Shown: positions 8,735 through 29,900 of the stretch, piece after piece | Numbering within the stretch: position 1 is the stretch's first letter | Layout of the letters: every line of letters starts with the position of its first letter | Assembly (NCBI GenBank): GCA_026003755.1 | Contig: BPHV01000003.1 | Span: 310,001 to 374,000, forward strand | Direction of reading: 5' to 3' | From: Candidatus Roseilinea sp. | GTDB taxonomy: Bacteria > Chloroflexota > Anaerolineae > J036 > Brachytrichaceae | Length of the DNA stretch: 64,000 nt | Made by a program: the position numbers and the translations under genes | Notes under the pieces: model-generated | Seen by the model: only the letters and a program-made list of their open reading frames with translations | Told to the model about the DNA's origin: nothing | Databases searched by the model: none

Positions 8735-8813
8735 ACTCGGGCTTATACCACAGACTGGCTATACTGACACGCCTAGGGAACGAGTCGCGAGCCTCTGGCG
8801 TCTTTGTGGAACG

Positions 8814-11424: not shown

Positions 11425-11588
11425 CGGCGGCGTTTGCCGGCCTCTTCTTTCTCGCGCGAAGCGGGCCGCGCACGTTTGGGTGCGACTGTCTCCGGCACAG
11501 CGCCCCAGATGCAGTTGCTCATCCGCGGCCCGCGTTGTACAAACAGCCCGCGCTGGTATGACGCTTTCCTCCTCAACTGGCTGCGACG

Positions 11589-12776: not shown

Positions 12777-12800
12777 CGGCGCGGGTACAATTTCGGTCAC

Positions 12801-13781: not shown

Positions 13782-13799
13782 CGCGCCGTCGCTAGCTTC

Positions 13800-14642
13800 A
13801 TGCCTGAGCTGCCGGAAGTCGAGACCGTAGCGCGCGCGCTGCGCGAGGGCGCCCCCAACGGCGCCTTGCCGCTCGTGGGTCGCACCATTCAATCCGTCAA
13901 AGTGCTATGGCCGCGCGAGGTGGCCCGCCCAACGCCACGCGCGTTCGCGCGTCGGATCGCCGGTTCGCGCGTGCAATCCGTCGGACGCTACGGCAAGTAT
14001 CTCCTGATCGGCCTGCGCGGCTCAAGTGATGACGCAGATGCGCTTAGCTTGCTCGTCCATCTCAGGATGAGCGGGCGGCTGGAAGTCGTCTCACGTTCGG
14101 CGGCGTTCACCCCGCATGCGCGCTTGGTGTGGCTGCTGGACGATGGCCTAGCGCTGCGCTTTGAAGATGCGCGCAAGTTCGGTCGCGCCTGGCTGGTGGA
14201 AGACCCGGCTGAGGTCATCAGCAAGCTCGGCCCGGACGCGCTCGCCATAACGCTTGAGGCGTTCGTCTCTCGCCTGCGCACCCGACGCGGCGCATTGAAG
14301 CCGCTCCTGCTCGACCAAACGTTTATCGCCGGCGTTGGCAACATCTATGCCGACGAAGCGTTGCACCTTTCCCGCCTGCATCCCTTGCGCGCCGCCCATT
14401 CTCTCTCAGAGGACGAGGCAGTTCGGCTCTACGCCGCGATCCGGCAAGTTTTGTTAGAAGGCATCGCGGCCAATGGCGCCAGCTTCGATTGGGTATATCC
14501 CGGCGGGAAATTCCAAGAGAACTTCAAAGTCTATGGCCGAACCGGTCAGCGCTGTCTAACGTGCGATGGCCCCATCAGGCGCCTTACCGTGGCCCAGCGC
14601 AGCACATACTTCTGTCCCGTTTGTCAATCCCCGGCCGGCTGA
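13800..14642 (+). CDS. mutM: formamidopyrimidine-DNA glycosylase
   Basis: Base-excision repair enzyme that removes 8-oxoguanine and ring-opened purines and nicks the strand by beta,delta-elimination. The protein begins MPELPEVETVARAL, so after Met removal the catalytic Pro1 and Glu2 are in place. LVHLRMSGRLEVV holds the region of the conserved lysine loop. The helix-two-turn-helix segment includes FIAGVGNIYADEALHLSRLHP. The C-terminal zinc finger is complete: CLTC, then about 17 residues, then CPVC. Length (280 residues) is typical. It starts 18 bases after the GNAT gene. No frame disturbance. Confidence 0.96.
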   Translation: MPELPEVETVARALREGAPNGALPLVGRTIQSVKVLWPREVARPTPRAFARRIAGSRVQSVGRYGKYLLIGLRGSSDDADALSLLVHLRMSGRLEVVSRSAAFTPHARLVWLLDDGLALRFEDARKFGRAWLVEDPAEVISKLGPDALAITLEAFVSRLRTRRGALKPLLLDQTFIAGVGNIYADEALHLSRLHPLRAAHSLSEDEAVRLYAAIRQVLLEGIAANGASFDWVYPGGKFQENFKVYGRTGQRCLTCDGPIRRLTVAQRSTYFCPVCQSPAG

Positions 14643-14828
14643 TCCTCCGTTCAGCTTGTGCTAAATTTCACTATCAAAATCTATCGCTCCGGCCGCCCTG
14701 CCAAGCTTGCCTGGTTTTGACAGGATAGCGCCCTTAGAATGCGGGTCGGTAGTAAGAGTGCAATCTTCAAGAGTCCAAGAGGGTGAGATAACCCAAGAGA
14801 ATTTGGGATAAATTTGGGAAATCGAGAC

Positions 14829-15893
14829 ATGACGCTGATGAAACCGGCGAAACCGGTTGGAATAACGGGTTATGGTGCGTATGTGCCGCGATATCGCTTG
14901 TCAGGACAAGCGGTATCGGAGTTATGGACTGGGGGCAATGTTGTGCCGCCGGTGAACGAAAAGGCGGTTCCTGGGCTGGACGAAGATGTCGTCACGATGA
15001 GCATCGAGGCGGCGCGCAATGCCATCGCGCGCGCCGGCTATGCTGACCCCGGCTTCAGCCCGGCGGGTCTGGGTGCAGTCTGGGTGGGCAGCGAGTCGCA
15101 TCCCTATGCCGTGAAGCCTACCGGCACGATAGTCGCCGAGGCAATCGGTGCGACACCCTATACCCAGGCTGCCGACTGGCAGTTTGCTTGCAAAGCAGGC
15201 ACGGAGGCCATCCAAGCAGCGATCGGCTTCGTTGGCAGCGGCATGGTGGCCTACGCACTGGCGATTGGGATGGACGCTGCGCAAGGGCGACCGGGTGATG
15301 CGTTGGAATATACCGCCGGCGCCGGCGGGGCGGCCTTCGTCATTGGCCCGGCCGAGCACGCGCTGGTCGAGATCGAGGGCTCGGTGTCGTATGTGACCGA
15401 TACGCCCGACTTCTGGCGGCGGCAATACGAGAAGTTCCCTGAGCACGCCGGGCGTTTCACGGGCGAGCCGGCCTACTTTCATCACATCACGTCGTCCGTC
15501 ACGGCGCTGCTGCAAGCCATGAACCTCTCAGCGCGCGATTTCGCGTATGCCGTCTTTCACCAGCCCAACGTCAAGTTCCCGCTCAAAGTGGGCGAGGAGT
15601 TGGGCTTTACGCGTGAGCAATTGCGCCCGGGCTTGCTGGTCAACGAGATCGGCAACGCGTATGCCGGCTCTTCGGTGATCGGGTTGACGGCCATCCTGGA
15701 TGTCGCGCAGCCGGGCGATCGCATCCTGCTGGCCTCATTCGGCAGCGGCGCAGGCAGCGATGCGTTCTGTCTGCGCGTCAAGAAGGCTGTGCCGGCAAAG
15801 CAGGTGTGGACGACGCACGAATACGTGCAACGGCGGACGCCGATCAATTACGCGCAGTATGCGCGGATGAAAGGGAACTACAAGTTGAGTTGA
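14829..15893 (+). CDS. hydroxymethylglutaryl-CoA synthase, archaeal type
   Basis: Condenses acetyl-CoA with acetoacetyl-CoA in the mevalonate pathway. It follows the short archaeal/bacterial form (354 residues): VGITGYGAYVPRYRL at the start, EDVVTMSIEAARNA, the nucleophile Cys in WQFACKAGTEAIQ, catalytic His in YAVFHQPNVKFP, and the closing IGNAYAGSSVIGL and LASFGSGAGSDAF. ATG at 14829 is chosen; an ATG three codons on is possible, and a TTG at 14814 would add five residues. The 186-base leader after mutM contains a small hairpin CCCAA-loop-TTGGG just before the start. It is the first gene of a three-gene set with thiolase and DUF35 protein. Confidence 0.92.
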   Translation: MTLMKPAKPVGITGYGAYVPRYRLSGQAVSELWTGGNVVPPVNEKAVPGLDEDVVTMSIEAARNAIARAGYADPGFSPAGLGAVWVGSESHPYAVKPTGTIVAEAIGATPYTQAADWQFACKAGTEAIQAAIGFVGSGMVAYALAIGMDAAQGRPGDALEYTAGAGGAAFVIGPAEHALVEIEGSVSYVTDTPDFWRRQYEKFPEHAGRFTGEPAYFHHITSSVTALLQAMNLSARDFAYAVFHQPNVKFPLKVGEELGFTREQLRPGLLVNEIGNAYAGSSVIGLTAILDVAQPGDRILLASFGSGAGSDAFCLRVKKAVPAKQVWTTHEYVQRRTPINYAQYARMKGNYKLS

Positions 15894-15910
15894 TGTGACG
15901 GCTTTTGCTT

Positions 15911-15967
15911 CTCACTCCCGACTCCTGAGCCAGTCGGGGGTGGGCGGGAGAGTAGGAAGTCGGAAGT
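15911..15967. repeat. heptamer repeats forming a 10-bp hairpin
   Basis: The spacer between the synthase and thiolase genes has units CTCCCGA, CTCCTGA on one side and AGTAGGA, AGTCGGA, AGTCATG on the other. ACTCCCGACT (15914-15923) pairs with AGTCGGGGGT (15932-15941), one G-U pair included, over an eight-base loop. No T run follows, so it is not a classic terminator; the last unit supplies the thiolase ATG context. Confidence 0.7.
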
Positions 15968-15968
15968 C

Positions 15969-17126
15969 ATGATGCGAGACGTTTCAATTATTGGGATTGG
16001 ACAGACGCCGGTGGGCGAGCACTGGGATAAGAGCCTGCGCGAGTTGGGCTTTCAGGCGCTCCAAGCGGCGATGAACGATAGCGGAGTCGAGCGGATTGAT
16101 GCGCTCTACGTCGGCAACATGCTGTCGGGTGAGTTGACCGGCCAAGAGCACCTGGGCGCATTGATCGCCGACTTTGCCGGCCTGCGCGGCATCGAGGCCA
16201 TCAAGGTCGAGGCGGCCTGCAGCAGCGGCGCAGCCGCGCTGCGCGTGGGCTACATGGCGGTCGCGAGTGGGTTGCACGACATCGTCGCCTGCGTCGGTGT
16301 GGAGAAGATGACCGACCAACAAAGCGACACGGTGACGAGCGCCCTGGCGACCGCAGCGGATGCCGAGTACGAGGCGCTGCAAGGGTTGAGCTTTGTAAGC
16401 ATCAATGCGTTGTTGATGCAGCGCTATATGCACGAGTATGGCTACAAGAAGGAGGATTTCGCCAACTTTGCCATCACCGCGCATGCCAACGCGATGAACA
16501 ATCCGTATGCCATGTTCCACACGCCGATCACGCGCGAGCAATTTGCGGCGGCCAAGCCGATCGCTGACCCGATCAATTTGCTCGACTCGTCGCCGATTGC
16601 CGATGGCGCGGCGTGCGTGATCCTAGCGCCCACGGCGATTGCCAGGGAGTTCACCAGCAAGCCGGTTCGCGTGCGGGCGATGTCCATCGCAACCGATACC
16701 CTGGCCGTCCACGATCGGCGCGATCCGCTCTACCTGGAGGGTGGGGCGATCAGCGCGCAGAAAGCCTATGCCATGGCGAACGTGGGGCCATCGGACATTG
16801 ATTTGTTCGAGGTGCATGATGCGTTCACCATCATGAGCGCGTTGTCGCTGGAGGCAGCCGGCTTTGCGCCGCGCGGCCAGGGCGTCCGATTGGCCATGGA
16901 GGGCGAGATCGGCCTGAGCGGCCGCATTCCGATCACTACCATGGGGGGGCTGAAGGCGCGCGGCCATCCGGTCGGCGCGACCGGCATGTATCAGATCGTC
17001 GAGGTGGTGGAGCAGCTCCGCGAGGAGGCCGGCGCCAACCAAGTGAAGAACGCGCGGCTGGGGATGGCCCAGAACATCGGCGGCAGCGGCGCAACGGTGG
17101 TGACCACGATACTGGAAAGACTGTGA
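15969..17126 (+). CDS. acetoacetyl-CoA thiolase, SCPx/archaeal type
   Basis: Joins two acetyl-CoA to acetoacetyl-CoA, feeding the synthase encoded just upstream. The 385-residue protein shows the acylated Cys in VEAACSSGAAALRVG, the family VHDAF motif in FEVHDAFTIMSAL, and GGLKARGHPVGATG with the catalytic His. It lacks the C-terminal CxG Cys context of biosynthetic thiolase I, as is usual in the archaeal and SCPx branch, where the His of GHP acts. It is followed by the DUF35 gene after 22 bases. Linkage to both partners makes a role in mevalonate synthesis more likely than in beta-oxidation. Confidence 0.92.
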   Translation: MMRDVSIIGIGQTPVGEHWDKSLRELGFQALQAAMNDSGVERIDALYVGNMLSGELTGQEHLGALIADFAGLRGIEAIKVEAACSSGAAALRVGYMAVASGLHDIVACVGVEKMTDQQSDTVTSALATAADAEYEALQGLSFVSINALLMQRYMHEYGYKKEDFANFAITAHANAMNNPYAMFHTPITREQFAAAKPIADPINLLDSSPIADGAACVILAPTAIAREFTSKPVRVRAMSIATDTLAVHDRRDPLYLEGGAISAQKAYAMANVGPSDIDLFEVHDAFTIMSALSLEAAGFAPRGQGVRLAMEGEIGLSGRIPITTMGGLKARGHPVGATGMYQIVEVVEQLREEAGANQVKNARLGMAQNIGGSGATVVTTILERL

Positions 17127-17148
17127 TCTCAGAGAGAGGGATGAAGGT

Positions 17149-17652
17149 ATGGAAGTAGCACGATTCTGGAGGACAACGGGACAGCGCTATCGCCTGATCG
17201 GCGAGGTATGCCCGAACTGCGGCAAGCGCCTCTTTCCGCCGCGCGATGTGTGTCCGGTGTGCGCGAAGGAGGCACGGGTGCCGTTCACCTTTAGCGGGCG
17301 GGGTGAGGTGTATTCGTACAGCACCGTCCATGTGCCGCCGCAGGGCTTTGAGAAGTTCGCGCCATATACCGTGGCGTTAGTGCGGCTGGCCGAGGGGCCG
17401 CTCGTGACCGCGCAACTCACCGACGTGGACGAAGCCGAGATTTACATCGGCATGCCGGTAGAAATGGTGACGCGTGTGCTGCGCGAGGATGGCGAGCGCG
17501 GCATGCTCGTGTATGGCTACAAGTTCCGCCCGGCGCGCCCGGTGCGCGATGACGCTTCGCCGTCCGTTACTGAACCGGCGCACGTGCCCGAGCCGGCAGA
17601 GGGCGCGCCGCCTGAAGGCGAGCCGGCGGCGGCGCAGCCTGTAATGGCATGA
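17149..17652 (+). CDS. DUF35 zinc-ribbon/OB-fold protein of the thiolase-HMGCS complex
   Basis: A 167-residue protein with an N-terminal helix, a zinc ribbon CPNC-(12)-CPVC at about residues 23-41, and an OB-fold (GEVYSYSTVHVPPQGFEKF ... TAQLTDVDEAEIYIGMPVEMV). In archaea such a protein bridges thiolase and HMG-CoA synthase into one complex that passes acetoacetyl-CoA along a shared CoA site; the gene order here predicts the same. The last 35 residues are a disordered Pro/Glu/Ala tail not seen in the core family. A purine-rich GAGAGAGGGATGAAGGT precedes the ATG. It ends at a hairpin terminator. Confidence 0.9.
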   Translation: MEVARFWRTTGQRYRLIGEVCPNCGKRLFPPRDVCPVCAKEARVPFTFSGRGEVYSYSTVHVPPQGFEKFAPYTVALVRLAEGPLVTAQLTDVDEAEIYIGMPVEMVTRVLREDGERGMLVYGYKFRPARPVRDDASPSVTEPAHVPEPAEGAPPEGEPAAAQPVMA

Positions 17653-17689: not shown

Positions 17690-18817
17690 CTATGTTGTCG
17701 GTGTCAGACGCGAGCCGCAACTGCGGCAGAACTTCTCCGTGCCCAGGATCGGTGCGCCGCATGTTGGACAGACGCGTTGCAAGGTCGGCGAGGGCGACGA
17801 CGGCGGCGCCGGTGCAGGCGGGGGGGAAGCCTGCGGAGATGGTGATTGCGGCGGAATAGGCGGTGATGCCGATACGACGGACGGTGGCTTCACCCGCGCA
17901 GGCATCACTGGCGCGGGCGAAGGTGTTGCCGGCGGGGGAGCGGGAGGCGGCTCGGGATTCAAACGTTGCGTCGGTTGGATCGGCCCACTCGCTGTTGGCG
18001 CCAGGTAAGGGTTGGGCGTCATCGGCGCGCCGTTCGCGCTGACTTGCGCCTGGAGCATGGCAGCCTGGGCGAGTTGGCGCGGGTTCAAGCCGGGCTTCCG
18101 CGCGGCGAGCGTCGCGCCGAGCATAGCGACGATTGCGCCGATCAACCCCACGCCGCTGGCGATTACCGGCGTGCGCGTGTCAATCAAGTTGATCACCCCT
18201 ACGCGCAGCTCGGGTAGTTTGTCGTTCACCGAGACGCCGAGCCCGGGGAAGCCGGCGGCGTTCTGCGTGAGCGAAGCGCGGATCACTGCGTCCAGTCGCT
18301 CGCTCAGATAGAGCATCGAGCCGGCGGTCGTCGCGGAAGCCAGCAATGTGAGCGCGATTAGCGTGACGCCCTTGACCAACTGCTCACCGAAGTATCCCCG
18401 GCTGAGCGCCACGATTATGGCCATGAAGAGCGCCAGCGCCGGCAGCGTGAAGAACGCCGCCTGGAAGAGCATGATCGGGCCGGGGAGCGACTCGGTTTGG
18501 GCGGCGAGGTCGCGAAGGTAACCTTGCTGCCGCTCTCCAACGTCATATTGGCCGATGAACTGCTCGCCGCCTTCCTGCTTCTGAAGCTCGCCAATGAGCG
18601 CCACGGTCTTCGTGGGAATCATCGCCAGGCCGTTCGCCATCATCAGCGCCTCGTAACCCGTGACATTCAGGAAGATCGGCGTGCTATCCGCCCTGAGGTT
18701 GATCTGCAGCCGGGCAAACGTGCGCGTAGGTAGCCACACCAAGACCGCCATCGCTAGCGCGACGGTGATGCAGCCCAACATGCAGATCAAGTTGTTGATG
18801 AAACGAATCACTCCCAC
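17690..18817 (-). CDS. four-helix membrane protein with C-terminal zinc ribbon
   Basis: A 375-residue protein. Four membrane segments lie at about residues 5-29, 117-140, 150-173 and 217-240. Between the first two is an extracytoplasmic loop of about 85 residues. A long Pro/Ala/Ser-rich linker (about 265-345) leads to a terminal zinc ribbon CPTCGAPILGTEKFCRSCG at about 350-368. The same CxxC...CxxC ribbon appears in the FHA protein at 22301, tying it to the signalling genes. No enzymatic motif. It lies 18 bases after the first kinase gene in the same direction and is the last gene of the island, probably a structural or sensing partner. Function unknown. Confidence 0.75.
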   Translation of the reverse strand: MGVIRFINNLICMLGCITVALAMAVLVWLPTRTFARLQINLRADSTPIFLNVTGYEALMMANGLAMIPTKTVALIGELQKQEGGEQFIGQYDVGERQQGYLRDLAAQTESLPGPIMLFQAAFFTLPALALFMAIIVALSRGYFGEQLVKGVTLIALTLLASATTAGSMLYLSERLDAVIRASLTQNAAGFPGLGVSVNDKLPELRVGVINLIDTRTPVIASGVGLIGAIVAMLGATLAARKPGLNPRQLAQAAMLQAQVSANGAPMTPNPYLAPTASGPIQPTQRLNPEPPPAPPPATPSPAPVMPARVKPPSVVSASPPIPPQSPSPQASPPPAPAPPSSPSPTLQRVCPTCGAPILGTEKFCRSCGSRLTPTT

Positions 18818-18835
18818 AGCCCCGATTTTAAACTG

Positions 18836-20785
18836 CTACGGCGAGTTACCTGCGACGATGACGTAATAACGGCGCACCGGAAAGAATTGCTGATCGCGGT
18901 GGGGGGTCTCGGCCTCGTTCGGCGCGATGAGCGCGCTGCAAGGGCGATCGTTTGCCCGCGCGCTGGTCATGGCGACGCGAATGTCCACGACCACGGTTTT
19001 TGTGTCAGGCCTAGGCGTGACGCGCGCGTGGATGTAGTGTTGCTGGCCCGGTTCCCAGTTCAGGAAGTACGACTCTGCGACGGGGTAGGTGATGGGCGTC
19101 TGCGATGGCCCGCAGGTGATGTAGGACACCATCTGGTTGCAGCGGTTCTTAGGAGTGATCACGCGGGCGTAGGAGTCGGTGCTGAAGATGCAGTTGTCCG
19201 GCTCGACGTTGACGATGTTGTTGTCCACGTTGAGCAGTTCGATGGCCTCGGCTTCCTGGAAGGAGATCGTGATCGAGCCGGCATCGGCTGCCGTGCCGCC
19301 GGCGTTGCTGCCCCAGACGATCACATCGAACGGCTGGCCGGGCCGGATGGTGCCTGGGATGGCCACGCCGTCAATGCGCGGTTGCGGCAGGTTGCCCGCG
19401 CCTTTGCTCGGCGCGAGCACGATGACGACCGTCGGCGACGGCGTGGGCGTCGGGCTGGGCGTCGGCGTCGCGGTCGGCGTGCGTGTGGGTGTTGGCCGGG
19501 GCGTTTGTGTCGGCGTCGCCGTTGGCGTGGGCGTCGCTGTGGGTGAAGGTGGGGGCGTCGGCGTTCGTGTTGGCGATGGTGTGAGCGTTGGTATCGGGAG
19601 TGGCGTTGGTGTCGCGGTTGCCTCGCCGTCGGTGGGCGGGACGACGGCCGGCGCCTCAATGGGCGTAGGTGTAGTCCTGGGCGTGTTCGTGGGCCGCGGC
19701 GTCGGGGTGACGGTCGGCGTGGGTGGGGGCGTCGGTGTCGGTGTGTCGGTCGGCGTAGATGTGTCGGTCGGTGTCAACGTGCGCGTTGGCGCGGGGGATG
19801 CAGCAGCCGTGATCTCATTGGCGTTCGCGCTGCCGGCCAGCACCGATGCGCCAGGCAGCGAGATGCCGAACGCGCTGCTGAGCATCAGCCCAACCCCGGC
19901 GCACAGCACCAGGCTGATCATGAGCGCGGTGAAGCTCAGGCCAATCCGCGCGCGTTTGCTGAGCGAGGCCAGCCCCTTGCGATGTAGCGCTTTGCGGAAT
20001 TCCTCAACGGTTTGAAAGCGTTTGCTGATCTCGACCTGAGTCGCTTTAGCGATAGCGTCGGCGACGGCTGGGCTGACCGCTTTTAAGTCGCCATGCACGC
20101 GGTCGGCGCGCGGTAGCACAAACGGTGTCAAGCTTGGGTCGTAGCCGGTCAGCGCATGCAGCAAGGTGGCACCCAGCGAATAAATGTCGCTGTAGGGGCC
20201 GGTTTGCCCTTTGCCATGTTGCTCCGGCGGCGCGTAGCCCGCTGTGCCGAACGGTTCGGTGTCCGACGTTTTGCCTTGTTTGAACGTGCGGGCGATGCCG
20301 AAGTCAATCAGCTTGATTCGGTCGCCGGCGGTGAGGATGATGTTGCTGGGCGTGAGGTCCCGGTAGATCACCGGCGGCGATTGCGTGTGCAGGTAGGTGA
20401 GCACGTCGCACAGTTGGTCGGCCAAATCCAGCACCTGCTCTTCCGGCAAGCCATACCACTGGCCCACCATGCGTTCGGCCAGCGTTTCGCCCTGGATGTA
20501 CTCGGTGACGAGGATCGGCTTGTCGTCCTCGGTGACGAAATAGTCTATGACTTGAACGATGCCGGGATGGCTGAGCTGCGACAGCATGCGGGCTGTCGTC
20601 TCGAACTGGCGCCGGGCGGCTTCGGCGTCGGAGGACATGCCGATGCCGAGCTTGAACACCTTGACCACGACTTGCCGGTTGAACGTGCGCTTGTCGGCCG
20701 CCAGGTAGATCGTTGATTGCCCCCCGTCAGCCATCCAGCGGAGGATCTCGTAACGATCGTTGAGAATCGTTCCCGGGTGTAGCAT
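18836..20785 (-). CDS. receptor-like Ser/Thr protein kinase with extracytoplasmic domain
   Basis: About 650 residues. The kinase domain (about 10-270) has GGQSTIYLAADKRTF with a modified glycine loop, the ATP-binding Lys in VVVKVFKLG, the catalytic loop YRDLTPSNIIL (Tyr in place of the HRD His), IDFGIAR, and PFGTAGYAPPEQ. One membrane helix follows (about 275-298), then a roughly 125-residue Pro/Thr-rich stalk, then a beta-sandwich-like domain (IPGTIRPGQPFDVIVWGSNAGG ...) with two Cys pairs possible. ATG at 20785 is chosen because MLHPGTILNDRYEIL aligns exactly with the start of the neighbouring kinase; a TTG eight codons earlier is possible. It is the last kinase of the island, with the ligand domain outside the cell. 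Confidence 0.9.
   Translation of the reverse strand: MLHPGTILNDRYEILRWMADGGQSTIYLAADKRTFNRQVVVKVFKLGIGMSSDAEAARRQFETTARMLSQLSHPGIVQVIDYFVTEDDKPILVTEYIQGETLAERMVGQWYGLPEEQVLDLADQLCDVLTYLHTQSPPVIYRDLTPSNIILTAGDRIKLIDFGIARTFKQGKTSDTEPFGTAGYAPPEQHGKGQTGPYSDIYSLGATLLHALTGYDPSLTPFVLPRADRVHGDLKAVSPAVADAIAKATQVEISKRFQTVEEFRKALHRKGLASLSKRARIGLSFTALMISLVLCAGVGLMLSSAFGISLPGASVLAGSANANEITAAASPAPTRTLTPTDTSTPTDTPTPTPPPTPTVTPTPRPTNTPRTTPTPIEAPAVVPPTDGEATATPTPLPIPTLTPSPTRTPTPPPSPTATPTPTATPTQTPRPTPTRTPTATPTPSPTPTPSPTVVIVLAPSKGAGNLPQPRIDGVAIPGTIRPGQPFDVIVWGSNAGGTAADAGSITISFQEAEAIELLNVDNNIVNVEPDNCIFSTDSYARVITPKNRCNQMVSYITCGPSQTPITYPVAESYFLNWEPGQQHYIHARVTPRPDTKTVVVDIRVAMTSARANDRPCSALIAPNEAETPHRDQQFFPVRRYYVIVAGNSP
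19425..19795. repeat. low-complexity Pro/Thr linker-coding tract
   Basis: GTCGGCGT-like hexameric and longer units run on the forward strand; read on the coding strand they give PTPTP, PTATPTP and PTNTPR runs of the kinase stalk. A similar, shorter tract lies at 20985-21200 in the second kinase. Length polymorphism by slippage is likely. Confidence 0.7.
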
Positions 20786-20950
20786 CTCCGTTGGGCAATT
20801 GTCGCACAACGAATCAGCTCGGCGCCGCTTGGCTGAGGCGAGTTTGCGCTCGCCGCCGGAGAGCAGCCTGTGCGCCTGGGCGATGGGACCGGATATCGCC
20901 GCGAACTGGGCCGGCGGCGCGGGTTTCTGGGGTTGCGGGGGCGCCGGTCA

Positions 20951-22243
20951 TCAAGTGGTAGCTGTCGGCTTAGGCTGTGGCGTCGGCGTATCTACGAAGA
21001 CGGGCCGGCGAGTTGGCGTGACCGTGATCGCTCCGGTTGGCGTCGCCGAGGGTGATGGCGAGAATGTGGGCGTCGGCGCTTTGGTCGGCGTTGATGTCGG
21101 TGCGGGTGCCCTCGTGGGCGTTGCGGTAGGTGGAGGGGATGACGTCGGCGTGGGCGACGATGTAGGCGTTGGCGGCAGCGTGTCAGTTGGTGCGACGGTC
21201 GCCGTGGTGGTTTCGGTTAAGCTGAGCGCTGCCGGGGCCTGTGCGCCGCCGGGCAGCACGATGGCGGTCGCATTGTCACCCGTCGGGCCGCCGGGCAATG
21301 TGCCGAGCGCGCTCGCCAGCATCAGGCTGATGCCGCCGCATAGCACGAGGACCACGAAGGCGAGCCCGGCGATTGCGCCGACGTATGCGCCGCGAATGGG
21401 CGACCGACCGATGGTGATGTTGGGTGAGCGGCGGCGGGCGCGCCGGATGTCGCGTCGAAATTCTTCGACCGACTGGTAACGCTCGGTAATATCTAGGCGC
21501 GTCGCCTTTTCGATTGCGTCTGCCAGCGCCGAGCTTACTTCCTTCAGATCAGGATGGACGAGGTCGGCGCGCGGCAGCATGAACGGCGTCAGGCTGGGAT
21601 CGTAGCCGGTCACTGCGTAGAGCAGCGTGGCGCCGAGCGAGTAGATGTCGCTGTAGGGGCCGGTTTGCAGGTTGCCGTACTGCTCGGGCGCGGCGTAGCC
21701 TGTCGTCCCGAGCGGTTCGGTGTCCGATGTTTTGCCCACCTTGACCGTGCGGGCGATGCCGAAGTCAATGAGCTTGATCCGGCCGCTTGATGAGATGATG
21801 ATGTTGCCCGGCGTCAAGTCGCGATAGATGACCGGCGGCGTTTGGCTGTGTAGGTAGCTCAGCACATCGCACAACTGCTCGGCGATGTCCAGGACTTGCT
21901 CTTCCGGCAGGCCGAACGCTTCCAGTTGCATGCGGTGCTGCAGCGTCTCGCCCTCGGCGTATTCGGTGATCAACAGCGGTGTGTCTCCGTTCAGCACATA
22001 CTCGATCACCTGGATGATGCCGGGGTGGTGAAGCTGGGCCAGCATGCGCGCGGATGCCTCGAATTGGCGCAGCGCTGCCTCGCGGGATGCCGGCGTGCCC
22101 ACCCCGATTTTGAACTCTTTCACCACCACGCGATGGCCGAACGCTCGCTCGTCGGCAGCAAGGTAGACGATGGACTGTCCACCCTCGGCGATCTGCTCGA
22201 TGATGCGGTAGCGTCCGTTAATGAGTTGGCCGGTGATCAGCAT
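20951..22243 (-). CDS. Ser/Thr protein kinase with Pro/Thr-rich tail
   Basis: A 430-residue paralogue of the kinase at 18836. The kinase domain covers about residues 10-270: GGQSIVYLAADERAF, Lys in VVVKEFKIG, YRDLTPGNIII (again Tyr for His), IDFGIAR, PLGTTGYAAPEQYG and SDIYSLGATLLYAVTGYDPS. A membrane helix is at about 288-312, and then comes only a Pro/Thr-rich tail ending TPQPKPTATT. The tail stops at a double TGA, after which the same frame stays open for another 46 codons up to the next kinase. Compared with its neighbour, it lacks the extracytoplasmic beta domain. It starts 57 bases after the FHA gene. Probable role is phosphorylating the island's FHA ligands (inference). Confidence 0.9.
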   Translation of the reverse strand: MLITGQLINGRYRIIEQIAEGGQSIVYLAADERAFGHRVVVKEFKIGVGTPASREAALRQFEASARMLAQLHHPGIIQVIEYVLNGDTPLLITEYAEGETLQHRMQLEAFGLPEEQVLDIAEQLCDVLSYLHSQTPPVIYRDLTPGNIIISSSGRIKLIDFGIARTVKVGKTSDTEPLGTTGYAAPEQYGNLQTGPYSDIYSLGATLLYAVTGYDPSLTPFMLPRADLVHPDLKEVSSALADAIEKATRLDITERYQSVEEFRRDIRRARRRSPNITIGRSPIRGAYVGAIAGLAFVVLVLCGGISLMLASALGTLPGGPTGDNATAIVLPGGAQAPAALSLTETTTATVAPTDTLPPTPTSSPTPTSSPPPTATPTRAPAPTSTPTKAPTPTFSPSPSATPTGAITVTPTRRPVFVDTPTPQPKPTATT

Positions 22244-22300
22244 GGCGGATGAGTGTGGCCGGTGTGCGACGACCGTCTGCTTGTCGGCGTCGGGCGCGAG

Positions 22301-22879
22301 TTAGCTGTGTATATCGAAGGTGACGACACACCGGCCGAATTCGATCCGATCCCCCGGACACAACAGGACGGGCTGGCCGGTTTCGATGCGCGTGCCGTTG
22401 ATCTTCGTCCAGTTCGTCGCCGTGATGCTGACGATTGTGGGCTGATTGCCGGCCGTCAGCATAATGCGCGCGTGTCGTCGTGACACCGTGCGATCCGGAT
22501 CGTACGGCGTCAAATCAATGTCGGGATGAATGGCGTTGACGGGGTCTTCGCGGCCGATCAACCAGGCGTTCGCCGGGTTCGGCGGGAAGTGGATGATTGT
22601 GCCGTTGCTGCTGATGAGCCGCAGCGCGGTGCTCACGACCGGCTCGGCCGGCGGCTGGCCGACGAGATGCACGGGCGCGGTCGGCTGAGGCGACATCGGG
22701 GCGGCTTCGAGCGGCGCGCCGCACTCCCCGCAGAACTTGCTGCCGGCGGGGTTGACGTGTCCGCACCGAGCGCACGTTAAATTGATAGATGTCAGCACCG
22801 GCGGGGATAGGCGCGTCCCGCACCGGTTGCAAAAGTTCGCCCCCTCGGGCTGCTCTGCACCACAATTCGGGCAAATCAT
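22301..22879 (-). CDS. double zinc-ribbon FHA-domain protein
   Basis: 192 residues. Two zinc ribbons sit at the N-terminus: CPNCGAEQ...FCNRCG and CARCGHVN...FCGECG, about residues 3-20 and 36-53. A short linker leads to an FHA domain at about 85-190 with the phospho-threonine-binding loops GRED, TVSRRHARIML and the closing NGTRIE. FHA domains read pThr marks, here presumably laid down by the two kinases encoded directly downstream. Cytoplasmic, with no membrane segment. It is 146 bases after the vWA gene, the largest gap of the lower half of the island, so an internal promoter is possible. Confidence 0.9.
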   Translation of the reverse strand: MICPNCGAEQPEGANFCNRCGTRLSPPVLTSINLTCARCGHVNPAGSKFCGECGAPLEAAPMSPQPTAPVHLVGQPPAEPVVSTALRLISSNGTIIHFPPNPANAWLIGREDPVNAIHPDIDLTPYDPDRTVSRRHARIMLTAGNQPTIVSITATNWTKINGTRIETGQPVLLCPGDRIEFGRCVVTFDIHS

Positions 22880-23025
22880 CTTGCTTTCCCCTGAACTTGA
22901 TCACCCCTTTGCTCCGGACGCAGCGCGCTCGCGGGCGCGCGGGTCTTTGAGCGATCCTCTGGCGGCATGTCAACACGATGTCGCGGCGTTGGCTGCGCGG
23001 CGGCGGAGATGGGCCGGCAGGGCGC

Positions 23026-24985
23026 TCACGAGTTCAAGCGTTGCGTCCTCCGGCCTTGTTGAAAGATCAGTTTCGTCATGCCCACTTCGATCTCGGCATC
23101 CTCCGGCAGCAGCGTGCGTGTTTTGATGGGCAGCGGCATGCGATTGACGCGGGTGCCGTTGGCCGTGCCTTCATCGAGGATGTAGAACTGCTGCGTGACG
23201 GGGGTCGCGCGTAATTTGGAAGTGGCGGCTTGAGATGTACGGATCGCTCATCAGCACGACCTCGCACTGGGAGGGATCGCGGCCGACCCATACGGTATCC
23301 GACCCCACCGGTAACGAGGTGCCGGTCATCGGGCCGGATACTACCTTGAGTTCGGCGATTGGCTGGCGGTTCAAGCCCAGTCGCTGCGTGACCATGCGGA
23401 TGCCGCTCTGCACGCCCTTCGACATGTTCGCGCGGAGCACGGCGAATTGATCGCTGTAGCGGCGGTTCATGATGATGAGGGCCACGATCAGGCCGAGCGT
23501 GATGAGCGCTAGGCCGCACAAGCTGGCCGCGAGGGCGGTATTCTGGCGCAGCCACTGGTCGAACGACGGCGCTTCGGTGGGCACGAACGGTATGGCGGGC
23601 ACAGAGGCCACCTGGAGTACGGTGCGCACCGATGGGCTGTTGCTCGTCGTCCCGAGGTACGAATCTGTGGCGACGGCTTGGAAGGCATACGGAAGCGTCT
23701 TGGTCACGACGCTGCGGTCTTCCTTCGGCGGTTGCCAGACCAGCGCGTAAGGGGGGGCGTCCAACCGTCCGATGGACGCGCCGTTGGCGAAGAATTCGAT
23801 GCTTACGTCGCGCGCTCGGCCGTCGGGGAAATCTACCTGCGCAGTGATCGTGATCGGAGGCGCGGGTTCAGCGGTCTCCTGGAAGAAGGTTTCGCCTTCC
23901 AGTGGGGTGAGCAGCCTCACGGTGGGCGGCCGAAGCGCGGACGCAAAGCGCACCTCGGCTGTGTCGCTGCCGAGTTGGGTGTTCACCGTCAGCCGCGCCG
24001 AGTGCTCGCCGGCCGGCCTGATGCTGGTGAAGCGCAAAATGTACTGCGACCGCTGCGAGTCTATGCGGCCGTACAGGGCGCGCAGTTGCTCCTCGGCCTG
24101 CGCCAGCGGCACGCTCGAATCCAATAGCACGTAGCCGCCGTTGGTCTGTGCTGCCAGCGCGCTCATGTTCGTGAATTCGCGCGGGCCGCGCTGGTTGACT
24201 TGCACGGCGAAAATGGAGACGCCGGCTTCGTTGGCCCGCCGCAGGATGTCGCCGCGGATGCCTTCGTCGCTGAATTTGTTGTCGGCGCCGTCGGAGAACA
24301 GCAGGATGATCTTGCGGCGCTGGGCGAGCGCTTCGCGTGTGGGGACGTCGGGGTTGCGCGTCAGCAGGTTGAGCGCTTGGTTGAGTCCATCGAACAACGC
24401 TGAGGTGCGCTCTATCGGTAATCGCGGAATCGCCTCCAACTGGGCGGTGATGGCGCCGAGGTCATTGGTCGGTGGGATGAGCGCGGCGATCTTGTTGTCG
24501 CCCGTGCCGGTGGTGACCACCAGGCCGACGTAGTCCTTGCCGCCACTGTTTGCCGAGATCGCTTGCATGAATTGCTGCGCGACGCGGCGGACGTTCTCGG
24601 TGTTGACCACGTTGTAGTCGCGCGTGTTGTTGAGGCCGGCCAGGTCGGCCACGATGATTGCGCCGATGCCTGCGTTGTCCGATTCGACGTTGGTGATGGG
24701 AATCGGGCTGTTATCGGCCAGGTTGGTGAGCGTGAAGTTCTGCGCCGTCAACCCAGTCGCAGCGCTGCCGTCCGGCCAAACGACCGAGGCTGTAATGGTG
24801 TAGTCCGGGGCGCGCGTGCTGTCCACCTGCTTTACCTCGAGCGTGGGCCCGCCGGTTTGCGCAGCGGCCGGATAAGGCCGGAGCGCGGCGCCAACGATGA
24901 GCGAAGCCAGCGCGGCCATGACGGAAGCACGTTGCCAGGTTAGTAGTTTGAACATCTCCATGTTGCTTTGCGTGAACATCTTCAT
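23026..24985 (-). CDS. vWA-domain membrane protein with cytoplasmic FHA domain, frameshifted at 3' end
   Basis: About 653 residues. A signal peptide (about 14-42, ending YPAAAQ) precedes a region with GIGAIIVADLAGLNN, then a vWA domain whose remaining MIDAS-like elements are SALFDGLNQALNL and RKIILLFSDGADNKFSDEG. Ig-like segments follow (TVRLLTPLEGETFFQ ... RDVSIEFFANGASIG), then a membrane helix at about 488-512, and a cytoplasmic FHA domain (VWVGRDPSQCEVVLMSDPYI, SSRHFQI). A run of five Cs at about 23200 should be four; with that, the frame continues DPVTQQFYILDEGTANGTRV and ends QGRRTQRLNS. The topology puts vWA outside and FHA inside, a receptor-like arrangement. A second Met at 24961 is an equally good start. 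Confidence 0.88.
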
Positions 24986-25120
24986 CTCGGCTGCTCGATC
25001 AGCGCCTCTTTATCGCGTGAGTGCTGAGACCTCAGAAAACTACCCGAGTGATGCGCCAAACCTGACGCGAACGTGGCGGTTCGCGCGCCTGATGCCCCTG
25101 ATTTTAACTAAGTGCGTTTC

Positions 25121-26644
25121 TCACAAGAACCTGCCGATCGCCACGGCGATATTATCCTCGCCCCCATTGGCATTGGCCAGATCTACCAGGCGATCACAGG
25201 CGATTTGTGCATTCGCAGCAAAGGTTAATACATCTCGCATCGCTTCGTCGCGCACCATCTCCCATAGGCCATCGGAGCATACGATCAGCCAATCGCCCGG
25301 CTGCAGGCGCACCGGCTCGTATGCATCGGATACGCCGGTCTTGGGGTCGCCCAACGACCGGTAGATCAGGCTGCGTTCCGGGTGAGTGTAGCGGTCTTCA
25401 TCGCGCAGTATGCCGGCGTCCACCAGCGACTGGACGAGTGAATGGTCCTTCGAGAGGCGGACGAGCGGGCCGTCCTCCTGCGAGCGCCACAGATAGATGC
25501 GGCTGTCGCCGACGTTGCCTAAGTAAGCCTGGTCGTCCACCACCAGGGCGAAGGCGAGCGTGGAGCCCATCTGATTCCCGCGGCGGCTGCCTTCGGCGAC
25601 GATCCGGTCATTGATGTCCTTAACGGTGTGCAGCACCCAGGCGTTGATCTCGGCGGGCGAGCGTGTTGTGCCAGAGGCGAAGAATTGCTGCGCCGCTTCC
25701 ACTAGGGTGCGGATGGCGATCTCGCTGGCGACTTCGCCGGCTTCCACGCCGCCCATGCCGTCGGCGACGGCCAGGAGGATGGGCCTGCGCTGGGGTTTGT
25801 CGTCGCTCGACGGGCCAGGCGTGATCTCGATGGCGCACACGTTGTCCTCGTTTTCGGTGCGCACCAAGCCGGTGCTCGTCGCGTGGCCAAGCTCGGCTTC
25901 CAGGCTGTCGCCACGATGAGCGGCGTCGGCTTGGGCGCGCCGCAGCCCGACCAGCAGCATCGCTGCGCTGATCCGTTCGCGTGGATCGGCTGCCCGGCGC
26001 AGGGCATAACGCACATGCGATTGCGCTTCGACCAGCCGCGTGTGCGCGAGCGCCGCGCACAGTGCGCGCACGTCGGCATATGAGGCGTCAGGGTTGTCCT
26101 CTAACAAAACGAGCGTGCCGAGGTTCCGCCAGTGCGCGCCGCCGGCGTTCACGCCGATGTGCTGCAACACGGCATCGTCATCGGCCAGGCCGAGCGCTAC
26201 GCCGCACTGGTGCAGCGCGTTCAGCCCCTCCACCAATTGTTCGAACCACGCCTCCCACTGTCGCTTTGATTGTTGATTGAGCCAGGCTACGCTCATCAGA
26301 TCCGGCGCGACCACCTCTGGCACATAGTAGCGCACGACGCGATCGAACCAGCCCATCTCGAACATGGGCAACAGCCGCGCCACATAGGGGATCGGCTTTT
26401 GTTGGAGTTGTTCGCTCAGCGTGATGGCGCCGGCGAGGTCGAGCGGCGCCAGCCCTTCGTGCAACAAGAGGCGCGCCGATCCATCCGACACGATGGCCTC
26501 GTAGGTGCGCGATCGGCTGTTTGCCGGCGAGCCTTCGGCGAACGCAGTGATGATGTACGACGTGTGGCGCGTCGCGTCGGTCACGTATTCACCGATCGGC
26601 AGCGGATCGGAAGCTGTGGAGAGTGTGGCAGTCGAAAGAGTCAT
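25121..26644 (-). CDS. pseudokinase-PP2C fusion, Ser/Thr phosphatase
   Basis: 507 residues in two parts. The C-terminal part (about 255-507) is a complete PP2C phosphatase: RTENEDNV, LAVADGMGGVEAGE, MGSTLAFALV, LGNVGDSRIYLW, LIVCSDGLWEMV and GGEDNIAVAIG, with all metal-binding Asp in place. The N-terminal part (about 20-220) has the outline of a kinase C-lobe (EQLVEGLNALHQCGVALGLADDD, NLGTLVLLEDNPDASYADVRALCAAL) but no catalytic Lys, HRD or DFG, so I read it as a pseudokinase; that part is inference. The start overlaps the previous gene by four bases (ATGA), so the two are coupled. It should reverse the kinases of the same island. Confidence 0.9.
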   Translation of the reverse strand: MTLSTATLSTASDPLPIGEYVTDATRHTSYIITAFAEGSPANSRSRTYEAIVSDGSARLLLHEGLAPLDLAGAITLSEQLQQKPIPYVARLLPMFEMGWFDRVVRYYVPEVVAPDLMSVAWLNQQSKRQWEAWFEQLVEGLNALHQCGVALGLADDDAVLQHIGVNAGGAHWRNLGTLVLLEDNPDASYADVRALCAALAHTRLVEAQSHVRYALRRAADPRERISAAMLLVGLRRAQADAAHRGDSLEAELGHATSTGLVRTENEDNVCAIEITPGPSSDDKPQRRPILLAVADGMGGVEAGEVASEIAIRTLVEAAQQFFASGTTRSPAEINAWVLHTVKDINDRIVAEGSRRGNQMGSTLAFALVVDDQAYLGNVGDSRIYLWRSQEDGPLVRLSKDHSLVQSLVDAGILRDEDRYTHPERSLIYRSLGDPKTGVSDAYEPVRLQPGDWLIVCSDGLWEMVRDEAMRDVLTFAANAQIACDRLVDLANANGGEDNIAVAIGRFL

Positions 26645-27069
26645 CTGGGACGCATCACCCGCTCATTTTGCAACACGAACTGGAAGACGGCTTGCTGAGA
26701 CTTGCCCAGCGAGATAGTCGCGCCGGAGCGCAAGCGATTGTGGCGTGAGCGCCGGCCGTCCACGAACATGTGTTCACCTTCGACCAGACGCGCCTCCCAT
26801 ACGCCATCTGACGCGCGGAAGATCTCAGCATGATCCTCGGCCAGATCGGCCACTGACTTGCCGGTGATGCGGTACCACGACGTGCGACCGAGGCGAATCG
26901 GCTCGGTCAGCGGGAAGCGCTTGCCGCCGATCACCAGATAAGCCGAAGGTGTCCTGGGCGCGCGGCGGCGTGAGAACAAGCCGAACAGGCCGGCCAGGCC
27001 GCCGATTCCGAGGAGCGCTGCATCGGCGCAGGTGGCAACAACGTCGTATAGCGGGAAGGGAGCGTTCAT
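26641..27069 (-). CDS. FHA-domain protein with N-terminal membrane anchor
   Basis: 142 residues. A hydrophobic stretch at about 8-32 (VVATCADAALLGIGGLAGLFGL) followed by RRRAPR suggests an anchor with the rest inside the cell. The FHA domain covers about 44-140: RLGRTSWYRI, EDHAEIFRASDGVWEARL, DGRRSRHNRLRSGATISLG. The usual SxxH is replaced by EDH, so the phospho-peptide grip may be altered. ATGA overlaps join it to the genes on both sides (27066-27069 and 26641-26644), so all three are translated together. Confidence 0.85.
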   Translation of the reverse strand: MNAPFPLYDVVATCADAALLGIGGLAGLFGLFSRRRAPRTPSAYLVIGGKRFPLTEPIRLGRTSWYRITGKSVADLAEDHAEIFRASDGVWEARLVEGEHMFVDGRRSRHNRLRSGATISLGKSQQAVFQFVLQNERVMRPR

Positions 27070-27761
27070 TTGTGGGATGCTCTGCCGAGGATGCTGCTCA
27101 CGAACGAGCGCTGTGGGCCGAAGACGATTGCTCCCAGGGCGCCTTGCGCGCCTTGCTCCTTCGCCATCGCCAGCAAGCGTTGGACGGCGCCCTGCGGGTT
27201 GCGCGAATACACGGTCAGCGCAATGTCATATTCATCGAGCTTTTCGCTCACCGAAGACGTGCAAATCAATAGGCTGTCCGCCGGCTCCAGCTTGCGCTGG
27301 GCGGTGGGTTCCATGCGGATGACGTCAATGCGACCGCTGGCCTGGATGCAGTAGCAGCGAATCGCGCCGACGCCGATACCATACCATTGATTGCCGACCA
27401 CAGCAGCGATCACCATCGGCATGTGCGTCGGCGCGTCGGCGTCTTTCGACTGGCGCTTGAGCATCCGGTTCGCTTTGTCGAGCGTGGCGCGCAGGGCGAT
27501 GAGCCGATCTACGTCGGGCGGAACTTCTTCATAGGCCTGGCGGATTTGTTCTATCAAGCTCTGGCCGGCGAGCGACGCGCCGCTGGCATCGGCGAGGGCC
27601 ATCAACAGCCCGCGCTGGGTTGAACTGGCAGCCTGGGCGTCGGGGTGTGGGCCTAATGGGTAAACGGCGGCGCCGGCTGCCCCACCGAATGCGCTCCGGG
27701 CCGGCTGCCCGCCGGAGCGCAGTCGTACGCGGAATTTATCGAGCGTCTGTCGGCTGAACAC
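27066..27761 (-). CDS. PP2C-like protein lacking metal-binding residues (putative pseudophosphatase)
   Basis: 231 residues, no signal. The last 120 residues line up with the second half of PP2C: MPMVIAAVVGNQWYGIGVGA-IRCYCI where active enzymes have GDSRxY, then LEPADSLLICTSSVSEKLDE for LxPGDxLLxCSDGLxE, and LLAMAKEQGAQGALGAIVF for the LAxxxGxxDNxxVxV end. The Asp of GDS, SDG and DN are replaced by A, S and A, so it should not hold the two metals. This assignment is mine from reading the pattern and is moderately sure. It is the first gene of the tightly overlapping trio and may be a binding scaffold or decoy for the PP2C encoded two genes on. Confidence 0.6.
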   Translation of the reverse strand: MFSRQTLDKFRVRLRSGGQPARSAFGGAAGAAVYPLGPHPDAQAASSTQRGLLMALADASGASLAGQSLIEQIRQAYEEVPPDVDRLIALRATLDKANRMLKRQSKDADAPTHMPMVIAAVVGNQWYGIGVGAIRCYCIQASGRIDVIRMEPTAQRKLEPADSLLICTSSVSEKLDEYDIALTVYSRNPQGAVQRLLAMAKEQGAQGALGAIVFGPQRSFVSSILGRASHK

Positions 27762-28673: not shown

Positions 28674-29900
28674 TCACCTCAGCCCTGATCCAGCTAACAA
28701 GTCGGCGATGGCCACCGACTGGCCGGATGCGATGCTCCGGTTTGCGCCGACGCCGATTAAAACACTCATGGCGCCGTCGCGCGAGCCGGCCATGTGGCCG
28801 AGCGGATCGGGCATCGGCTTGTTGCCGAACAGCCGCTCCAGCAGCAGCGGGTCGCCGCCGCCATGCCCGCCCTCGGCGGCAGCCACCTCGCGCACGGTCA
28901 GATTGCCTCGGGCGTCGAACAGTCTGATCTGCCGCGCTTGGCCGGCCAACGGCCCGCTTTCGATTTCTTCCAGCTCCATGCGCCCGACCGTGCCGGTGAT
29001 GCTGGCGCGCCAGCCCTCGTATGGCGCGTAGGCGATGAGCGAATAGGCCAACTGCGCGCCGCCGGCGTAGCGCACGCTCACGCTCATCGTGTCGTAGATG
29101 TCTATCGCTTCGCTGAAGACGCAGCGGTCGCGGAAGTAGCCATCGTATTGCTCGGCGTCGAAGTAGAGCGCTTTCATGGTCGGGTCGCCGGCGTAGTTCA
29201 CGAAGAACTCGCATGTTTGCGCATGGTGGCATGTGCTGCACCGTTCACCGCGCTCGGCGCGGGTGGGGCCGTAGAACTGGCGCGACCCGAAGCCGAACAC
29301 GCGCTCCGGCTCGTCGTCCAACCACCAGTTGACCAGGTCGAAGTGATGTGTGCTCTTGTGCACCAGCAGGCCGCCGCTGTTCTCCATGCGGCGGTGCCAG
29401 CGCCGGAAGTAGTCCGCGCCGTGCCGGCGGTCGAGCATCCACTCGAAGTCCACGTTGAGCACGCGGCCCAGCGCGCCGGAGCGGATGACCTCTTTGGCCA
29501 GCGTGACGTAGGGCATGAAGCGATAGTTGAAGGTGACGGTGACTTTCCGGCCGCTGCGCCGTTCGGCCTCCAGGATGGCCCGGCATTTCTCGTCGTCAAT
29601 CGTCATCGGCTTTTCGGTGATGGCGTCGCAGCCGGCCTCCAGCGCGCGGATGATGTATTCGTGGTGATAGCGATCCACAGTGGTCACGATCACGCAATTC
29701 GGCTTCGTCTCGCGCAGCATGGCGTCGAAGTCGTCGAAGACGGGCGGATGCGTGGTGCGCTCGCTCAGCAAGCGGGCGCGATGGGGGTTGATGTCGAACA
29801 CGCCGGCGATGCGCGCTGTATCGCGGAATTGCCGGGCGATGGGGATGGCGAACATGCTGATGGCGCGGCTGCTGGCGCCGGCAAATGCGTAAGTCTTCAT
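28674..29900 (-). CDS. Gfo/Idh/MocA-family oxidoreductase
   Basis: 408 residues. The N-terminal Rossmann fold starts MKTYAFAGASSRAISMFA with a degenerate glycine loop (GASSRA). VIVTTVDRYHHEYIIRALEAG and the hallmark EKPMTIDDEKCRAIL follow, EKP carrying the catalytic Lys. The C-terminal domain contains SGGLLVHKSTHHFDLVNWW, the typical active-site HxxD strand. An insertion CSTCHHAQTCEFF has three Cys and could bind metal; I do not know this from the classical members. It acts on a sugar or cyclitol-like substrate with NAD(P). ATG at 29900 is chosen since the upstream in-frame stretch has no family similarity. Confidence 0.87.
   Translation of the reverse strand: MKTYAFAGASSRAISMFAIPIARQFRDTARIAGVFDINPHRARLLSERTTHPPVFDDFDAMLRETKPNCVIVTTVDRYHHEYIIRALEAGCDAITEKPMTIDDEKCRAILEAERRSGRKVTVTFNYRFMPYVTLAKEVIRSGALGRVLNVDFEWMLDRRHGADYFRRWHRRMENSGGLLVHKSTHHFDLVNWWLDDEPERVFGFGSRQFYGPTRAERGERCSTCHHAQTCEFFVNYAGDPTMKALYFDAEQYDGYFRDRCVFSEAIDIYDTMSVSVRYAGGAQLAYSLIAYAPYEGWRASITGTVGRMELEEIESGPLAGQARQIRLFDARGNLTVREVAAAEGGHGGGDPLLLERLFGNKPMPDPLGHMAGSRDGAMSVLIGVGANRSIASGQSVAIADLLAGSGLR

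Follow-up and report, generated by a model that had tools for sequence, protein, structure and literature searches.

The window analysed here is a stretch of 64,000 nucleotides from Candidatus Roseilinea sp. (contig 3, positions 310001–374000, of a 3.34-Mb assembly that is 95% complete; this genome is labelled G000), and the element in question is a block of eight genes, g1 to g8, on its minus strand between positions 17690 and 27761. On balance, the block is best read as an operon-like, vertically inherited hub for envelope Ser/Thr phospho-signalling in Roseilinea and close Thermoflexales. It appears to be the main membrane-based phosphorylation control system of hot-spring Roseilinea, an Anaerolineae lineage described in the literature as anoxygenic and photoheterotrophic (PMC8446752), and with it the probable centre of Ser/Thr phospho-signalling has been identified in an uncultured phototrophic Chloroflexota lineage. 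Elsewhere in the Chloroflexota the cassette is found adjoining secretion or export machines, and of the forms seen in this analysis the block is the fullest.

The block is genuine and has been passed on vertically. In all eight other genomes of the genus that were compared, g1 to g8 stand in the order and orientation seen in the window, g1 being present in 8/8 and the contig of G005 ending within g7. A second genus carries it as well: all eight genes are present in G022, and G010 and G017 retain g2 to g7 and have a gene for a GDSL-like membrane protein where g8 would be. The eight-gene order is thereby known from ten genomes, and six genes stand together in two more. Because this order is kept in ten genomes, and the ratio of nonsynonymous to synonymous substitution (dN/dS) against relatives is 0.08–0.38 for every gene, the inactive-looking g1 and g2 included, indicating purifying selection, the arrangement is not due to chance. 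An earlier note on this DNA had allowed for the case in which no other genome kept more than two or three of the genes together, and this case does not hold. In the genus the block is usually flanked by ridA at one end and by fpg, HMG-CoA-synthase-like, thiolase and DUF35 genes at the other; in the window, the HMG-CoA-synthase-like, thiolase and DUF35-type genes lie in a row on the plus strand (14814–17652), facing the block, and neighbour it in most genus genomes. Contig-scan matches to the block proteins were named Candidatus Roseilinea, Thermoflexales and other Anaerolineae, and the majority of the family's other genera lack the vWA-FHA gene (g4) in a profile search at E 1e-20.

The open reading frame (ORF) listing of the window gives eight co-directional genes in the block. 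Nine genes in a row had been claimed earlier; strand and shared direction stand, whilst the count was one too high, the earlier list itself holding eight, and a ninth gene was rejected, none being found in 17690–27761. The first three genes had also been described as joined by ATGA overlaps: that of g1 and g2 is present in the window and in five of the other genus genomes measured, whereas that of g2 and g3 occurs in the window only, g2 in five relatives being about 135 amino acids (aa) long with its stop 17 nucleotides (nt) before g3. The g5–g6 gap (57 nt) and the g7–g8 gap (18 nt) do not vary between the window and five other members of the genus, and in the two most distant carriers every gap is ≤25 nt, g3–g4 excepted. 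From this intergenic spacing we infer that the block genes may be co-transcribed. Pfam matches support domains in g3 to g7 and the zinc ribbon of g8; for g2 the FHA domain does not reach the cut-off, and for g1 Pfam gives no match. The PP2C, FHA, vWA, kinase and zinc-ribbon domains reported earlier were borne out at their positions by Pfam, as were the Pro/Thr-rich kinase parts, which are the tails of g6 and g7 beyond the transmembrane (TM) segment (Pfam and TM prediction).

The phosphatase of the block is g3 (25121–26644; all block genes are on the minus strand), in which a putative pseudokinase domain (residues ~1–235) is fused to an active-looking PP2C domain (~250–507). The PP2C half matches Pfam PP2C_2 (E 6e-17), and its RxxNED, DGMGG, GDSR, DG and DN motifs are invariant in 16 sequences. 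In an AlphaFold2 (AF2) model of g3 (predicted local distance difference test, pLDDT, 84.7) this half matches PstP (1txo, Z 32.3) and PppA (6jkv, Z 31.5), and with metal-binding Asp motifs set in a predicted PP2C fold it looks active. The N-terminal domain was not mentioned in the earlier note. Its ~235 residues match a kinase profile (96.9%), a PDB profile search with it returned kinases almost exclusively, though weakly (best E 8.5e-4), the order of structural elements in the AF2 model is kinase-like, and no HRD or DFG catalytic motif was seen in it, which together point to a protein pseudokinase. The best 50 rows of the g3 fold search hold no kinase, the list being filled by the PP2C half, and this is not evidence against a pseudokinase.

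Two Ser/Thr kinases are encoded downstream. The first, g6 (20951–22243; Pkinase E 1e-36), has a single TM segment (291–309) and a Pro/Thr-rich extracytoplasmic tail, and keeps the catalytic motifs HRD (as YRD), DFG and APE (as PEQ). The second, g7 (18836–20809; Pkinase E 1e-33), also keeps the kinase catalytic motifs and has one TM segment, followed by a Pro/Thr-rich linker and a conserved immunoglobulin (Ig)-like ectodomain with an invariant Cys; the AF2 model of this ectodomain is a beta sandwich of moderate confidence (pLDDT 72), with weak Ig-like, integrin and cohesin matches. The last gene, g8 (17690–18817), encodes a four-TM protein whose Pro-rich tail is probably cytoplasmic and has a zinc ribbon at its end (Zn_Ribbon_1, E 2e-6).

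Two proteins of the block carry canonical FHA domains and are predicted readers of phosphothreonine (pThr). The product of g4 (23171–24985) has a signal or TM segment (18–36), an extracytoplasmic vWA domain, an Ig-like Big_7 domain, a second TM segment (486–504) and a cytoplasmic FHA domain (Pfam VWA_2, Big_7 and FHA), so that the arrangement proposed earlier, vWA outside and FHA inside on one chain, is also what is predicted here. The GR, SSRH and NGT motifs of its FHA domain are kept in nine orthologues from the genus and the second genus. A sensory role of the vWA domain may be inferred, with the DxSxS motif of the metal ion-dependent adhesion site being degenerate in these sequences (DLAGL in the genus). 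The product of g5 (22301–22879; 192 aa, soluble) joins a double zinc ribbon (DZR, E 3e-17) to an FHA domain (E 5e-13) in an ArnA-like layout, and its GR and SRRH motifs are invariant, with NGT present in the genus and altered in the second genus.

Alongside these stand three conserved, inactive-looking partners, as judged from sequence: the pseudokinase domain of g3, g1 and g2. The product of g1 (27066–27761; 231 aa, soluble) matches the NCBIfam Stp1 PP2C model (E 4e-8) and, in hhalign, the g3 family (96.7%, E 4.5e-10), whilst GDSR has become GAIR, SDG has become TSS and GGEDN is not kept. This loss of the metal-binding Asp motifs in a PP2C-related fold marks it as a probable pseudophosphatase, under a dN/dS of 0.14–0.28. 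The product of g2 (26641–27069; 142 aa here, against about 135 aa in most relatives within the genus) has an N-terminal TM segment (10–28) and a degenerate cytoplasmic FHA domain, in an FhaB-like layout. It had been described as an anchored FHA protein, which is right for the layout, but the FHA match is weak (Pfam E 0.0015) and the canonical S-R-H residues that contact pThr are absent, all 11 sequences having E-x-H instead.

By the PF13672 profile, g3 is the one PP2C of the window's genome, and the block PP2C is the only match in 9/12 block-bearing genomes (G000 and 8/11 others). The exceptions (G002, G008 and G022) are the same genomes that hold a full EssC-type ATPase, and the two extra PP2Cs of G002 are located in its type VII secretion system (T7SS) locus. 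Five kinases were found in the window's genome by PF00069, two being g6 and g7 and three being encoded elsewhere. These counts are most naturally taken to mean that g3 serves most of these cells as their general PP2C-type phosphatase, and because it is the only one detected in most carriers, the data suggest that the block is a central hub and not an accessory circuit; with three further kinases elsewhere in the window's genome, g3 probably resets more than its own operon. A complete write-read-erase circuit had been proposed earlier. Its parts are all represented, with two kinases bearing catalytic motifs as writer, two canonical FHA domains as reader and one active-looking PP2C as eraser, but given the mostly sole PP2C and the kinases outside the block it is probably not self-contained. 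One of the five PF00069 kinases, with a TM segment and a Pro/Thr-rich tail, lies on the plus strand of the window (52213–53541), and no PP2C or FHA gene was recognised around it among the listed ORFs.

A sole PP2C is also the situation of PstP in many Actinobacteria (PMC6554272), and the block could be the Chloroflexota counterpart of the actinobacterial PstP/PknA/PknB/FhaB set, that is, a housekeeping switch for cell-wall growth and division. The FhaB layout of g2, the g4 FHA domain, whose best NCBIfam match is FhaB (E 1e-15), the kinases, whose best NCBIfam matches are PknB/Stk1, and the vertical inheritance of the block agree with this. These NCBIfam matches, however, do not reach the equivalog cut-offs, the loci read show neither RodA, PbpA nor any further recognised gene of the wall or of division next to the block, no PASTA domain was seen among the domains read, and since other genera of the same family are without the block it is not universal in the lineage, which makes this explanation unlikely.

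Several observations weigh against the reading of the block as an operon-like hub. In the window itself g4 is frameshifted: its ORF stops inside the FHA domain, with five Cs at ~23200–23204 compared to four in the L026 orthologue, and the remainder of the domain continues in a shifted frame (approximate limits 23026–23199, minus strand) with at least 54 codons intact up to a stop at ~23026. An intact protein of ~650 aa is found in nine relatives, and in the window's assembly both halves come up in a profile search of the whole genome; the frameshift is either a sequencing or assembly error or a very recent mutation. The g3–g4 and g4–g5 gaps reach 100–290 nt in some genomes, where internal promoters are possible, and a consensus scan for promoter- and terminator-like sites found no excess over shuffled sequences. 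The homologue of g1 is located elsewhere in G010 and G017, and g1 therefore need not act in cis. The count of a sole PP2C comes from one profile and from assemblies ~91–99% complete, with SpoIIE-type phosphatases not counted.

Read from its domains, the hub could work as follows. The receptor kinases g6 and g7 would probe the envelope with their outer parts, Pro/Thr-rich and Ig-like, and place phosphates on threonines of each other or of partners. The resulting pThr marks would be read by the soluble zinc-ribbon protein g5 and the transmembrane g4, whose outer vWA and Ig-like parts may bind an envelope partner and in this way tie contact outside to pThr-dependent assembly inside. The marks would be erased by g3, which probably also serves kinases encoded elsewhere, whilst its pseudokinase domain, g1 and the membrane FHA protein g2 could tune or position it, and g8 may be a membrane partner. 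With its small group of pseudo-enzymes next to a sole phosphatase, the block would lend itself to understanding how inactive paralogues tune signalling.

The characteristic vWA-TM-FHA protein is not confined to this lineage. With a profile of g4 and its relatives, the family was found in 53/396 Anaerolineae genomes (35/222 sampled genera) and in 12/400 genomes sampled across the phylum; no match of the vWA-FHA protein was found on plasmids at E 1e-10, and acidobacterial contig-scan matches (L078–L115) cover the vWA part only. Neighbourhoods were read at 36 loci, one a duplicate, and counted on the 27 distinct loci whose flanks extend 6 kb or more: a kinase or PP2C gene lies within 6 kb in 25/27, both in 16/27 and another FHA gene in 12/27. 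Measured against a whole genome of 3.3 Mb that holds one PP2C and five kinases, this linkage is far above chance, though such genes may be more numerous in other genomes. Two type VII secretion loci hold family relatives (G124 and UR.bin201; FtsK ×3, WXG100, YukD-FHA), a WXG100 gene lies near the vWA-TM-FHA gene at L195, and three loci adjoin FHA-ABC exporters (G027, G620 and G039). The cassette of G027 (L053/L070) contains a fusion of zinc ribbon, two FHA domains, ABC ATPase and ABC2 membrane domain (Rv1747-like), as well as a kinase with an outer part matching Pfam FlaA. At L214 (G015, 8216–14974), in another genus of the family, FHA, PP2C, kinase, zinc-ribbon FHA and FHA genes stand together, with no vWA-FHA gene at the threshold used. 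Two FtsK labels (L073, and g5 against an ATPase) were set aside as zinc-ribbon artefacts, and the ABC label at L207 belongs to a separate ABC ATPase without FHA.

This recurrence of a kinase/PP2C/vWA-FHA cassette across the class beside different export machines bears on its general function. Because the core (kinase, PP2C, vWA-TM-FHA and FHA) recurs at loci adjoining type VII secretion machines or FHA-ABC exporters, its general function is probably to gate an envelope machine, with none adjacent in Roseilinea. More tentatively, the cassette may be an unnamed, Chloroflexota-wide envelope phospho-switch in which the transmembrane vWA-FHA adaptor turns ligand binding outside into pThr-dependent assembly of kinase and PP2C, a plug-in controller for T7SS, FHA-ABC exporters and others, into which inactive paralogues of the kinase, phosphatase and FHA proteins are built as regulators. 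We regard this as possible, and if true it would explain the reuse of one signalling cassette to gate several envelope machines.

The presence of homologous modules in T7SS loci (G124 and UR.bin201) and beside FHA-ABC exporters (G027 and G620), together with full EssC in some genus members (G002 and G008), raises the question of whether the block is an orphaned regulatory module that still controls a secretion machine encoded elsewhere. Against this, neither WXG100 nor full-length EssC was found in G007, a single-contig genome that has the block, or in G001 and G004. In the window's genome no WXG100 was found and no more of EssC than two short EssC-like fragments, so that the block is self-standing in Roseilinea. 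Within its T7SS locus, G002 has a separate set of kinases, two PP2Cs and a vWA-FHA protein, the latter of a distant lineage in the tree. In the tree, the Thermoflexales copies form one clade (100/100) whose sister is the ABC-linked G027 copy, and the clade of both T7SS-linked copies adjoins these, with the G002 T7SS copy far away. An orphaned module is thus improbable, and a T7SS as partner machine of the block itself was rejected on the G007 and G000 searches, remaining as the context of relatives. The G002 locus (L217, 4833–19493), with an EssC-like ATPase, three kinases (FHA at the N terminus of one), two PP2Cs and its own vWA-FHA protein, is a parallel, distantly related signalling set within the same genus. 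The EssC-like fragments of G000 lie on contig 3 (387688–388056, covered by L129) and contig 4 (131115–131348), the former near the contig end with broken frames, possibly a type VII ATPase that has decayed or been mis-assembled.

An anti-phage defence or conflict module, of the kinase-kinase-phosphatase (KKP) or TerY type, is very doubtful. The block kinase domains match the PD-T4-6 and MADS6 kinases of PADLOC, and KKP has two kinases and a phosphatase (PMC11341870). This kinase domain is common to many families, however, the other six proteins match no model in PADLOC (the comparison held no separate KKP model), no Ter genes were recognised alongside, and a defence island would not be expected to be inherited vertically in the core genome beside fixed neighbours; a defence identity was set aside as improbable. 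That the block is no coherent system but a set of adjacent signalling genes acting independently, as the unlinked g1 in two genomes and some long intergenic gaps might suggest, is hardly credible against an eight-gene order in ten genomes and a core linkage that is family-wide. On the far side of the block, ARAGORN placed a tRNA-Thr (tgt) on the plus strand (28787–28872) within an opposite-strand Gfo-like ORF, which may be a false positive.

The earlier note did not know the set as a named system; precedents exist in T7SSc (PMC11217815), archaeal Arn (PMC6509490) and the linkage of vWA, PP2C and kinase genes (PMC7159879). The described vWA-TM-FHA chain, on the other hand, is absent from the T7SSc, Arn, T6SS and PstP descriptions compared, and no description of the cassette in Chloroflexota was found in the open-access literature. 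As in TerY-P triads and the GAP1-N2-linked sets of kinase, PP2C and vWA genes (PMC7159879), these genes stand side by side in the block, but the vWA protein is standalone there and TM-fused to FHA here, and no Ter, GTPase or MoxR genes were recognised at the block (for Ter, among the flanking ORFs).

The block resembles the threonine pathway of the type VI secretion system (T6SS), PpkA/PppA/Fha, in its membrane kinase, PP2C (the PppA match given above) and FHA reader. PpkA itself bears a periplasmic vWA domain, unlike the block, where vWA is on a separate, FHA-bearing chain. No Tss genes were recognised beside the block, whose neighbours are unrelated; the rest of the genome was not searched for them. 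With the actinobacterial PstP/PknA/PknB/FhaA/FhaB locus it shares the sole PP2C (close to PstP in fold, as above), a TM-FHA protein and two membrane kinases. That locus has RodA and PbpA in its operon and a PASTA kinase; the block is without rodA, pbpA and PASTA, and adds the vWA-FHA protein, the pseudophosphatase, the pseudokinase fusion and the zinc ribbons.

Close in composition, too, are T7SSc, T7SSe and T7SSf, which between them have, like the block, kinase, vWA, PP2C/PPM and FHA parts, and in T7SS loci relatives of the cassette are found. In T7SSc, TscD, TscE and TscF are a membrane kinase, a vWA protein that is probably cytoplasmic, without TM, and a PPM phosphatase, and T7SSe/f have FHA and PPM parts (PMC11217815); the vWA of the block is instead outside and TM-fused to FHA, with no EssC/EccC or WXG100 in the block or alongside. 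That survey covers Bacillota and Actinomycetota, and the word "Chloroflexi" is absent from its text (PMC11217815). The Arn system of Sulfolobus comprises the zinc-finger FHA protein ArnA, the vWA protein ArnB, the two kinases ArnC and ArnD and PP2A, with ArnA/B controlling archaellum expression (PMC6509490, PMC7472852). A mark of this network is phosphorylation-dependent binding between its zinc-finger FHA and vWA proteins. Its phosphatase is PP2A and not PP2C, and its FHA and vWA domains are on separate proteins; what it has in common with the block, as a likeness of architecture rather than a shown homology of the whole set, is a zinc-finger FHA protein (compare g5), a vWA partner, two kinases and a phosphatase.

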